From Prevotellaceae bacterium (lineage in GTDB: Bacteria > Bacteroidota > Bacteroidia > Bacteroidales > UBA932), in contig JAIRLF010000256.1 in NCBI GenBank assembly GCA_031259655.1, forward strand, positions 1 through 10,840: DNA of 10,840 nt. The letters are read 5' to 3'. The notes below the pieces were generated by a model, which did no database searches, was not told where the DNA came from, and worked only from the letters and a program-made list of their open reading frames with translations. Shown in pieces: positions 5,849 to 10,451 of this stretch. How positions within the stretch are numbered: position 1 is the stretch's first letter; every line of letters starts with the position of its first letter. The translations under genes were made by a program, and so were the position numbers.

Positions 5849-6469
5849 TTATTGCTTAATACGTAATTTGAGTTTTTGCACATTGCTTTTTATGTCAATT
5901 TCCGACCTGTCGAGTTTTGCTGTCAGAAAAGATAGCGGCGCTTTGATATTTTGTTTTAAAAAATCAATCTCTGCCTGCGACATTTTTTTGCAGTTTTTGA
6001 TTTTTTTAACCGCCATTGCGTTGCGTTCGTGTTTAGTCAGGATTTCCAACCGGCAGTTCAACAAATTTGCAATCTGAGCAACGACCTCGCTGCCGGTCGA
6101 ACGTTTTGCCGATTCTATCAGCGACATGTTACAGCAGGCTACGCCAAGCATATTGGCGAATGTGCGCTGTCGAAGATTTTTTTCGATTCTGATGTTTTTC
6201 AACTGAGTCAAAATCCGTTCTCTTTCGCTTGTCCATTCTCCGTCTTCCACTCGAAGTTTGCCGTCTTCGACAATTTCCAGTGTAGAACCCAAAACTTGAG
6301 CGATTTTAGCCAGAGTGTCGATGCCTACAGAATGACGCCCTGCTTCCATGCGAGTAATGCTCGCCGAAGAAATATTGGTCAACTTTGCGAGTTTCAGTTT
6401 GGTATATCTCTTCATTAACCTCAATTCTTCGATTCTTTTTCCAATTCTTATCCGACTATTCTCTTCCAT
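5849..6469 (-). CDS. Tandem XRE-type DNA-binding protein
   Basis: A 206-residue predicted transcriptional regulator with three potential DNA-binding parts. Residues about 8-66 are a well-formed XRE/Cro-type HTH (RIGKRIEELRL......KLAKLTNISSASITRMEAGRH...DTLAKIAQVLG). After a charged linker, residues about 86-145 are a second, more diverged XRE domain (LKNIRIEKNLRQRTFANMLGVACCNMSLIESAKRS...VAQIANLLN), with two cysteines at 112-113 near its recognition helix. Residues about 162-203 (MSQAEIDFLKQN..APLSFLTAKLDRSEIDIKSNVQKLKLR) resemble a small homeodomain/SANT-like helical unit; that assignment is inference. It lies 59 bases after thrS and 20 before the M16 gene. No clear TAnnTTTG box precedes it, so it is probably read from the thrS promoter. 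No partner toxin or M78 peptidase is next to it. The regulated target is unknown. ATG at 6469 is the first in frame and leads directly into the HTH. Confidence 0.85.
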   Translation of the reverse strand: MEENSRIRIGKRIEELRLMKRYTKLKLAKLTNISSASITRMEAGRHSVGIDTLAKIAQVLGSTLEIVEDGKLRVEDGEWTSERERILTQLKNIRIEKNLRQRTFANMLGVACCNMSLIESAKRSTGSEVVAQIANLLNCRLEILTKHERNAMAVKKIKNCKKMSQAEIDFLKQNIKAPLSFLTAKLDRSEIDIKSNVQKLKLRIKQ

Positions 6470-8533: not shown

Positions 8534-8811
8534 AAAAAATAATATTTCTATATATCAAAAAGTTAATAGTCTTCCATACGCGGTTTCCATGACTGATGGA
8601 TGGTTATTTTTAGCCGAAAATTTCATTCAATCAACAAAAGGAGGCAATAACTATGTTCCGCAGAGACGATATTTTAAGGGAAAAATAGAATACAATCTCT
8701 GTGAAATGTAAAGTGTCATTTCCGCAGGAACTTTTTGTTTATGTTGTCCTGTTACCGTATATTGAAGGTGGCGTTATAACTTGTTAATTTCCCATTCCTT
8801 AGGCAAAAAAT
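8534..8811. other. Intergenic stretch between thrS promoter and repeat array
   Basis: I recognise no gene in these 278 bases. A 64-codon plus-strand frame (8517-8711) starts next to the thrS -33 region and has no family pattern. Inside it, in another frame, is a perfect AGGAGG (8639-8644) eight bases before an ATG at 8653 that opens only 11 codons (MFRRDDILREK, stop at 8688). A Shine-Dalgarno this strong is unusual in Bacteroidota, so this could be the broken head of a transferred gene, or chance. A further short frame (8711-8785, SFPQELFVYVVLLPY) is also unrecognised. Confidence 0.45.
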
Positions 8812-9107
8812 ACTCCATGTTTTTGTCTATTTGGACAAAAAAGCCTCCATATTTTTATCCGTTTGGATAAAAAAGCCTCCATATTTTTGTCGGTTTTTGT
8901 TCGTTTTTGTTCGTTCTGCCAAAAAACACTCCATATTTTTGTCCGTTTGGATAAAAAAGCCTCCATATTTTTGTCGGTTTTTGTTCGTTTTTGTTCGTTC
9001 TGCCAAAAAACACTCCATATTTTTGTCCATTTGGATAAAAAAACCTCCATATTTTTGTCCGTTTGGATAAAAAAGCCTCCATATTTTTGTCCGTTTAGAC
9101 AAAAATA
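8812..9107. repeat. Eight-unit tandem palindromic repeat array
   Basis: Eight contiguous units: 8812-8843, 8844-8875, 8876-8927, 8928-8959, 8960-9011, 9012-9043, 9044-9075 and 9076-9107. Six are 32 bp and begin with (A/C)CTCCATATTTTT or close. Units 3 and 5 are 52 bp and carry a 20-bp longer middle containing two GTTTTTGTTC words; units 2+3 and 4+5 together form an 84-bp higher-order duplication. Each 32-bp unit is an imperfect palindrome: TTTTTGTCC, loop GTTT, then GGATAAAAA. The arms change together: G-C at the key pair in units 1 and 8 (GTC/GAC), A-T in unit 2 (ATCC/GGAT), G-T in units 4, 6 and 7. The array ends 13 bases before the -7 box of the ATPase gene. It has no spacers, so it is not CRISPR. 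Open frames run through it on both strands because few stop codons occur in the unit. Confidence 0.95.
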
Positions 9108-9128
9108 TCGGAATAATTTGTACCTTTG
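9094..9128 (+). promoter_or_regulatory. Promoter for the ATPase gene, overlapping repeat unit 8
   Basis: TACCTTTG at 9121-9128 is an exact TAnnTTTG -7 box. The -33 position falls on TTTAG (9094-9098), the centre of the last palindromic repeat unit; other units have TTTGG here, a better -33 match. Transcription would start near 9135, about 13 bases before the ATG at 9148. The repeat array therefore sits where an operator or activator site would be expected. Confidence 0.65.
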
Positions 9129-9147
9129 CCGCGAAATTATTATCATT

Positions 9148-10383
9148 ATGATTAAGAGAAAAAGATATTTGGACAAGATTGAAAACGGGTTTAACCACCT
9201 GCCTATTATAGTTTTAATAGGAGCGCGACAAGTGGGTAAAACTTCGTTAATGAACGATTTTATTACAGGCAAAATTTCGCTGTCGCTTAACGGACAAAAT
9301 ACGGAGATTGCGGAACTGTTCCAGAAATTTTCTGTTATCGAACAATATTTGCAAGTACATCTGAATACGAAATTAGACGGTTTTTTGCTTATTGACGAAT
9401 TTCAATATATCGACGGCATTTCCGTTATGCTAAAATTGTTGACGGACAAATATTCAAAACTGAAAATTCTTTGTTCGGGCAGTTCTTCCTTAGATATTTT
9501 GCAAAAAACGGAAGAATCATTGGCTGGCAGAGTGCGTATTATTGAGGTTTCTTCGCTTTCGTTTGAAGAATATCTGTCGTTTAATAACGAAAAATTGTTG
9601 AAATTATACGAAAAATTTGACAAAAATACTGAAAGTTCGGCTCTTACTTTACCCATTGAGCAACTTTTTGAAGAATATCTGATTTATGGCGGATTTCCAC
9701 GTGCTGCTCTAACAAAAAATAAAGAGGAAAAAAGTGAAATCCTGAATGATATTTACCAAACTTATCTTCTTAAAGATGTGCGAAATTATATCAATAACGA
9801 GCAGACTGTCGGATTTAATAAGATACTGCGATTGCTTGCTTCGCAGATTGGCAATATGGTAAATATAAACGAATTAAGCAAGGAAAGCGGTATTAGTTAC
9901 AAGCAATGTGAGGAATTTCTTTATCTACTTGAACAAATGTACATTATCAAACTGATTGAGCCATATTTTGTAAATAAACGCAAAGTGATTTCTAAAATGA
10001 AAAAAGTGTATTTTTGTGATTTGGGTTTACGAAACATGATCGAACGAAATTTTAATGCGATTGACTTCCGAATCGACAACGGCGCTATTGTCGAAAACTT
10101 CGTGATGCTCGAACTTTGGAGAAATAAAACGGCAGGCGGCGAATTGCAGTTTTATCGTACTACGGACGGTACGGAAGTAGATTTTGTGTTGTCGCAAACA
10201 ACACAAAAAATAGCAGTGGAATGTAAATTAAAAAGAATGGATAACCCCGTTAATCTACAAGGATTTAATAATTTTTGTAATGCCGAAAAAATTACCAATC
10301 GCTATATCGTTAATCGCAGTCTTAATACAACACATAACGGAACAAAATTTTTGCAAATGTTTTTAGCATCGAAAATAAACTAA
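9148..10383 (+). CDS. AAA_14-type ATPase with C-terminal DUF4143 domain
   Basis: A 411-residue P-loop ATPase of the AAA_14 plus DUF4143 architecture, at typical length. Walker A is G25-ARQVGKT32, Walker B is FLLIDE84, followed by the sensor-like ILCSGSSSLDI (107-117) and the family segment SLAGRVRIIEVSSLSFEEYL (124-143). YLIYGGFP (177-184) precedes a helical, possibly winged-helix part (about 222-272). The C-terminal domain ends in a PD-(D/E)xK-like pattern: EVDFVL with D345, then AVECK with E358 and K360, so a nuclease-like fold is plausible. The biological role of this widespread family is unsettled. The frame is open back to 8863 through the repeat array, but ATG 9148 is the right start: it follows the promoter and gives the family-like MIKRKRYLDKI. 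Codon use is AT-rich. The gene stands alone between the repeat array and a heptad/hairpin terminator, next to IS debris, which suggests an accessory, transferred gene. Confidence 0.92.
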   Translation: MIKRKRYLDKIENGFNHLPIIVLIGARQVGKTSLMNDFITGKISLSLNGQNTEIAELFQKFSVIEQYLQVHLNTKLDGFLLIDEFQYIDGISVMLKLLTDKYSKLKILCSGSSSLDILQKTEESLAGRVRIIEVSSLSFEEYLSFNNEKLLKLYEKFDKNTESSALTLPIEQLFEEYLIYGGFPRAALTKNKEEKSEILNDIYQTYLLKDVRNYINNEQTVGFNKILRLLASQIGNMVNINELSKESGISYKQCEEFLYLLEQMYIIKLIEPYFVNKRKVISKMKKVYFCDLGLRNMIERNFNAIDFRIDNGAIVENFVMLELWRNKTAGGELQFYRTTDGTEVDFVLSQTTQKIAVECKLKRMDNPVNLQGFNNFCNAEKITNRYIVNRSLNTTHNGTKFLQMFLASKIN

Positions 10384-10394
10384 TGCCCTGTCAG

Positions 10395-10429
10395 AACTAA
10401 AAACTAAAAACTAAAAGTTAAGAACTAAA
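10395..10429 (+). repeat. Five-heptad tract in the ATPase 3' region
   Basis: Five consecutive 7-base units: AACTAAA three times, AGTTAAG, AACTAAA, starting 11 bases after the ATPase stop. It matches in length, unit pattern and orientation the tract at 2299-2265 behind the cysteine hydrolase gene, and like that one it leads into a GGCTGACGCC hairpin. Confidence 0.75.
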
Positions 10430-10431
10430 AG

Positions 10432-10451
10432 TGGCTGACGCCGGCTGTTTT
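10432..10451 (+). terminator. Probable weak terminator after the ATPase gene
   Basis: A short hairpin with an ACGC loop (10438-10441), arms TGGCTG (10432-10437) and CGGCTG (10442-10447), pairs only with several G-U wobbles and is followed by TTTT at 10448-10451. It shares its core and loop with the strong terminator at 2241-2268 and looks like a decayed copy of it. Confidence 0.5.

Follow-up and report, generated by a model that had tools for sequence, protein, structure and literature searches.

A tandem dyad array upstream of an AAA_14/DUF4143 ATPase gene as a candidate private operator whose spacing follows the protein subfamily

Introduction

Why is the promoter of a single ATPase gene preceded by eight copies of a palindromic repeat, and what reads them? 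The question is raised by a locus in the window, the stretch of 10,840 nucleotides from a Prevotellaceae bacterium analysed here. A sequence-only reading of this DNA had proposed that the dyads are selected, either as RNA hairpins or as a dimer-binding DNA site. The protein encoded next to them is of the PDC-S01 type, described in PMC12988326 as an ATPase fused to a member of the PD-(D/E)XK superfamily; by the same account only three defences are more common in prokaryotes than PDC-S01, and validation of most PDCs is pending (PMC12988326). The words promoter, operator and autoregul are absent from the main text of that paper, and such arrays are not described in the accessible parts of PMC12988326 or PMC13356809. 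Subfamily-tuned arrays as a frequent trait of PDC-S01-type ATPases were not found in a literature search whose reach stopped short of most subscription papers and preprints.

Results

An array of eight units ends over the predicted -33 region

The features of the locus are collected in Table 1. A repeat search of the window resolved positions 8820..9105 (+) into eight units with successive spacings of 32, 32, 52, 32, 52, 32 and 32 bp. Together with Tandem Repeats Finder, which reported an 84-bp period at 8836-9064 (2.7 copies, 95% matches, score 416) and a 32-bp period at 8804-8891 and at 9005-9105, this confirms the earlier count of six units of 32 bp and two of 52 bp. The 32-bp unit consists of the dyad TTTTTRTCC-nTTT-GGAYAAAAA followed by a 10-bp spacer, and each 52-bp unit holds two additional 10-bp half-sites, TTTTTGTTCG, 10 bp apart, which account for the 20 bp of added length. 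The arms read as had been claimed: units 1 and 8 have GTC/GAC, unit 2 has ATCC/GGAT, and units 4, 6 and 7 have GTCC/GGAT. At the ninth stem position, unit 1 has a U-G pair and unit 8 has no pair. The array was found once in the 2.37-Mb draft genome (408 contigs, the window being contig C20), in which further matches extended over just 16-27 bases (E 0.13-0.86). A plasmid search with the array and a search of viral contigs with patterns from the ATPase protein gave no match; the locus may still be mobile.

The octamer TACCTTTG presumably represents the Bacteroidota -7 element TAnnTTTG, and the start codon of the ATPase gene is the ATG at 9148. Transcription would thus start near 9135, and the entire array would lie upstream of it. 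The overlap of unit 8 with the -33 region, reported before, holds: the last unit covers the predicted -33. On the other side the array is flanked by a threonyl-tRNA synthetase gene that points away from it.

A protein-coding reading of the array, based on a stop-free frame of 526 codons shared with the ATPase, was considered and rejected. We infer this because neither 32 nor 52 is divisible by three, because most listed homologues are ~390-430 aa long and the orthologs align from the same start, and because the predicted promoter sits between the array and the ATPase gene. The array leaves long frames open on both strands (8799-9272 minus, 8863-10383 plus), so that automatic annotation could yield false proteins or extend the ATPase too far. 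Elsewhere in the window, a direct repeat with a 14-bp unit (2.9 copies, 10393-10432) closely follows the stop codon of the ATPase gene, and the region 5849-6469 (minus strand) encodes a protein of 206 aa whose N-terminal domain is HTH_3 and in which a second HTH-like stretch was noticed by eye.

Table 1. Features of the array, promoter and ATPase gene (window coordinates).
Feature	Position	Strand	Basis or remark
Array unit starts	8820, 8852, 8884, 8936, 8968, 9020, 9052, 9084	+	repeat search
Partial flanking unit	from 8804	+	repeat search
Unit 3, 52 bp	8884..8935	+	extra direct half-sites TTTTTGTTCG at 8894, 8904
Unit 5, 52 bp	8968..9019	+	extra direct half-sites TTTTTGTTCG at 8978, 8988
Unit 8 dyad, over predicted -33 region	9084..9105	+	-33 placed from -7 box
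TACCTTTG, candidate -7 element	9121..9128	+	read directly from sequence
AAA_14/DUF4143 ATPase gene, 411 aa, PADLOC PDC-S01	9148..10383	+	profile matches
Winged-helix part, residues 217-289, proposed array reader	9796..10014	+	model secondary structure
PD-(D/E)XK-like part, residues 292-411	10021..10380	+	conserved residues, model

The gene encodes an ATPase with a winged helix and a PD-(D/E)XK-like part

The protein belongs to the AAA_14/DUF4143 family, with 87.2 bits against PF13173 (cut-off 27) and 121.1 bits against PF13635 (cut-off 28.1), and was matched by seven PDC-S01 models of PADLOC, the best with E 6.8e-88 over residues 1-375. The structural model (pLDDT 90.4) has 2qen and 2fna as its best solved Foldseek matches, followed in third place by Orc1/Cdc6 on origin DNA, and has an AAA plus winged-helix (Orc/STAND-like) fold; its fold relatives include STAND-type ATPases. 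The first two matches are the archaeal-type AAA+ ATPases PABY2304 (2qen) and SSO1545 (2fna), whose aligned range ends near residue 300. In PDB sequence searches 2qen alone appeared, among weak hits (E 0.3 and 0.042). The Foldseek rows, obtained with the whole-protein model, cover mainly residues 1-327; none is on the DUF4143 part alone, an absence that says nothing on the novelty of that fold. In the model the C-terminal part is an alpha-beta structure, and E316, D345, E358 and K360, which are invariant in 33 sequences, occur in the order expected of PD-(D/E)XK.

Arrays recur upstream of DUF4143 genes in three samples

The link between arrays and such ATPases was analysed in three sets of genomes. 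For each gene, the best internal repeat at lags of 15-110 in the 250 bp upstream was scored against 60 dinucleotide shuffles, which were redrawn between analyses, with slight variation in z values. Gene starts were set at the Met closest to 28 residues before the Walker A motif, and controls were longest-ORF calls that reached 150 aa and had no less than 120 bp of free upstream DNA. Set 1 comprised the genome of the window and 20 relatives and yielded 122 rows (two of them weak), of which two without a locus, 17 without a start and two with less than 250 bp were dropped, so that 101 were tested. Set 2 was drawn from 60 genomes of the phylum; two of its 54 rows belonged to the window's genome and were removed, and 46 of the other 52 were tested. 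Set 3 comprised 50 genomes obtained by a scan with the unit pattern, none labelled Bacteroidota and one labelled only 'bacterium', with Treponema, Fibrobacter, Bacilli, Actinomycetota, Lachnospiraceae and Rhodothermales among the labels; it gave 101 rows, 91 with a locus and 77 tested. Archaea were barely sampled: one genome was archaeal-labelled (L024), and it gave no match at E 1e-15.

At z>=4, a repeat was present upstream of 62/101 DUF4143 genes versus 38/242 controls in set 1, of 13/46 versus 9/176 in set 2, where all 13 lags were 22, 23, 32 or 33, and of 29/77 versus 13/147 in set 3. When the three sets were pooled and a lag of 22, 23, 32 or 33 was demanded in addition, 76/224 upstream regions qualified against 15/565 controls, an odds ratio of 18.8 for which p-values are guides only, since the tested genes are related. 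Downstream regions passed the same thresholds in 10 of 252 cases. For eight of the 15 matching controls the upstream region is also that of a divergent DUF4143 gene, two are themselves P-loop proteins by the GK[ST] motif, and one is divergent to one of these two. At least one such array was present in 31 of the 62 genomes that had a tested gene. The outcome that would have spoken against a link, namely none at all, was thus absent from all three samples. The expectation that arrays precede such ATPases more often than other genes was borne out for the array layout and failed for the TTTTTGTCC sequence: other DUF4143 genes with repeats mostly carry one that differs from it.

It is the layout and not the sequence that recurs. 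A 16-base unit pattern run over the genome contigs gave at least 114 stretches, each with a single match among the matches listed, and near-matches to the dyad among 123 loci were confined to the window's own (L001, L003), L002 and, once each, L088 and L120.

The array is not general in the family, as a repeat at z>=4 was absent upstream of 120 of the 224 tested DUF4143 genes, including all 26 with the motif FPV..TGPRQ. Within the window's genome, other DUF4143 genes seemed to carry repeats of their own, and the paralogues on contigs C228 and C374 had no array. On contig C273 of this genome, among the rows without a start, repeats were seen by eye only.

Several further repeats were observed in these sets. 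Some controls carry microsatellite-like repeats. Strong upstream repeats were found at three control P-loop ATPases, L210 (G019:C36), L155 (G107:C38) and L363 (G552:C1, minus strand), with lags of 33, 51 and 32, respectively, and the pattern may therefore reach beyond DUF4143. In the window's own genome, an array with a unit of ~54 bp (z 61) lies upstream of a P-loop ATPase starting near 4710 of L209 (contig C72), which has a weak DUF4143 match only; there the half ACTCGCC returns inverted, as GGCGAGT, closely after a TAACTTTG box.

The period of the array follows the protein subfamily

Lags were then compared with protein relationship on FastTree trees, which came with long-branch warnings. 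On the pooled tree of 224 proteins, the classes 22-23 and 32-33 required 8 changes, against a mean of 22.6 and a minimum of 18 in 300 shuffles, and exact 32 versus 33 required 9 (shuffled mean 18.6, minimum 12). The distinction between 22 and 23 stayed within the shuffles (2 changes, mean 4.5, minimum 2), and among genes with z<4 the period classes were not clearly beyond them (11 changes, mean 14.9, minimum 10). Of 29 genes in sets 1 and 2 that lack a significant array, 14 shared the lag of their nearest array-bearing relative to within 1 bp, where ~1 was expected.

The same relation is seen when genes are grouped by Walker A signature. The best lag was 23 or 46 in all 14 genes with GPKxCGK, from 13 genomes (11 at z>=4), and 23 and 21 in two tree relatives outside the signature (G100:C196 and G102:C337, respectively); it was 22 in 7/7 genes with EPRxFxQ, three of them at z>=4. 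Lags of 32, 33 or 64 occurred in all 17 array-bearing genes of the K..G[AP]R[RQ].GK group (31 genes in total), which sits near the window's gene on the tree (support 85), and lags of 32, 33 or 66 in 21 of the 22 array-bearing genes of the RKP..RGARQVGK group (38 in total). Arrays were present in 11/33 genes of the RR[CS]GKS group, with mixed lags, and in 0/26 of the FPV..TGPRQ group. None of these patterns fits 67 genes, including the window's own, whose best lag is 84 (32 + 52).

Two groups deserve mention for other reasons. The array-free FPV..TGPRQ genes form a natural comparison group for array function. Genes of the VITGxRRCGKS group (G055:C104, G104:C12, G069:C212, G578:C1 and others) have long inverted repeats between promoter and start codon, with mixed lags, perhaps representing another control layout.

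Spacing seems to outlast unit sequence, and arrays are mostly private

Upstream of the ortholog from the same family (71% identity; L002, L125) are four units of ~32 bp whose dyad is related to that of the window, and the repeats are shorter in 13 orthologs from the order, at 47-61% identity. With lags restricted to 15-60, the best direct one was 31-33 in 11/14 orthologs, although several repeats are short and not all are strong individually. As unit sequence differs among them, spacing seems to outlast sequence.

This is in line with the comparison of units between genomes. A unit match at z>=3 was obtained for 22% of 99 pairs with at least 45% protein identity (15% on the opposite strand, the outcome to be expected of palindromes) and for 5% of 191 pairs at 35-45% identity (7% on the opposite strand). 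Below 35% identity it was obtained for 3% of 418 and 3% of 1145 pairs, and among 400 drawn pairs without a blastp hit for 2%. Units met across phyla include TTTACTCA..TGAGTAA, shared by Bacteroidota and the Rhodothermales genome, and a dyad resembling GGATT..AATCC, which occurs both in Bacteroidota and in Fibrobacter. Within genomes the arrays are largely private, as 31/36 had no repeated 13-mer elsewhere in the 3 to 373 kb examined of the same genome. Among 61 genes from nine groups, the units of most stop close to the -33 region or cover it, and those of some relatives are placed after the -7 box and before the ATG, or at the ATG itself.

Discussion

The reading that we judge rather likely from these comparisons of sequence is that the array is a private operator: the ATPase would bind its own array and control its own promoter. 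A private promoter repeat whose spacing tracks the protein of that very gene across phyla is best explained by the protein binding it, and units that cover the -33 region or, in other genes, the start codon speak for autorepression. The AAA initiators DnaA and RepA likewise control their own genes. Three steps are thereby inferred: the protein itself as binder, the winged helix as reader and repression as effect. Binding would probably occur through the winged helix at residues 217-289 of the model, with one protein assembly per unit, so that protein geometry would set the unit spacing, at 32 bp here and at 22-23 or 33 bp in other subfamilies. Sites filled up to and over the -33 region would limit the ATPase's own transcription. 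Orthologs have a minimal operator of one or two units, which in the window would have been lengthened to eight. The lag classes 22-23 and 32-33 are roughly one turn of the helix apart, and the 52-bp units are longer by 20 bp; both suggest that the units face one side of the DNA.

Sites upstream of the -33 region fit activation equally well. The ATPase might bind the array and activate its own promoter in the manner of STAND regulators of the MalT type, and both the STAND-type fold relatives and the end of most arrays just upstream of or over -33 agree with this. We nevertheless hold activation to be unlikely, since some members of the same subfamilies have their units downstream of the -7 box, before or at the ATG, where activation is improbable.

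It is also unlikely that the arrays are read by another host factor and that their link with subfamilies reflects shared descent of gene and promoter. Unit sequence is indeed common mainly to close relatives, and gene and promoter travel together. The period, however, persists among orthologs with different unit sequences and holds across phyla within a subfamily, and the privacy of 31/36 arrays in the DNA examined implies that a common host factor would need many specificities.

Eight units exceed the need of a simple operator, and the PD-(D/E)XK motif of this defence candidate looks intact. The array might therefore serve mainly as a platform on which the ATPase-nuclease is assembled or held, through docking, self-marking or silencing of the nuclease, with transcription as a side effect. 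The ortholog arrays of one or two units and their promoter positions fit plain regulation, and we regard such a platform as improbable. More speculatively, PDC-S01 could in many subfamilies consist of an ATPase-nuclease and its own cis array that docks a harmless assembly, the spacing reporting how the assembly is built and loss or titration of binding during infection releasing both expression and activity; this too we would call a long shot.

That the array works as RNA hairpins is very improbable. Single units do fold as hairpins (seven sequences), as any dyad would, and the presence of a dyad is not evidence of RNA function. The paired changes of the arms, which had been put forward as a sign of selection on pairing, do not exceed chance: when the six 22-base dyads (five distinct rows) were shuffled 500 times, 343 shuffles paired at least as well, so that the covariation expected of a structured RNA element is missing. 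Seven of the nine stem pairs never vary, one varies one-sidedly or is unpaired, and one, at columns 6/17, differs in both arms, in just one unit. The G-U pairs that had been taken to favour RNA fit an R (G or A) chosen independently in each half-site. Arm pairing in homologous arrays is mixed, with an inverted repeat at z>=3 in 7/14 orthologs versus 5/60 controls. Moreover, the array lies upstream of the predicted transcription start, repeats of one period occur upstream of the promoter in some relatives and between promoter and ATG in others, and an Rfam search gave no match at the gathering threshold. Of the earlier interpretation, support is retained for a repeat that behaves as a DNA site under selection, linked to AAA_14/DUF4143 genes, and is lacking for the hairpin.

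A neutral satellite, that is, unselected repeat expansion in an AT-rich promoter, would suit the microsatellite-like repeats of some controls and the varying array length among relatives, but is hardly credible given subfamily-specific lags, the upstream bias and a period conserved while sequence changes.

If the private-operator reading is right, an array that follows the subfamily provides a ready DNA ligand for many PDC-S01 genes. It opens to direct test whether binding is sequence-specific, what the stoichiometry is (at 22, 23, 32 or 33 bp per unit) and whether the genes are autoregulated, and orphan winged-helix ATPases would be matchable to their sites from sequence alone.

Proteins that bind repeats in front of their own genes are of a known kind. 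The window's protein matches PDC-S01, a single-gene phage-defence candidate of PADLOC, to which the promoter array is an addition. Defence operons are known to be governed by separate dedicated repressors such as CapW, BrxR and the controller proteins of restriction systems; the present locus resembles these in placing a defence gene under a local operator and differs in that the proposed reader is the ATPase itself rather than a separate protein. Archaeal Orc1/Cdc6 with its ORB sites, DnaA and the iteron-binding RepA bind short repeats near their own gene and thereby affect its expression. The likeness lies in short repeats close to the gene of an AAA plus winged-helix (or related) protein, binding being the step that we propose here. 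Unlike these initiators, the window's system has no sign of a replication role, and it combines many paralogues per genome, each with a different array, with an extra PD-(D/E)XK part.
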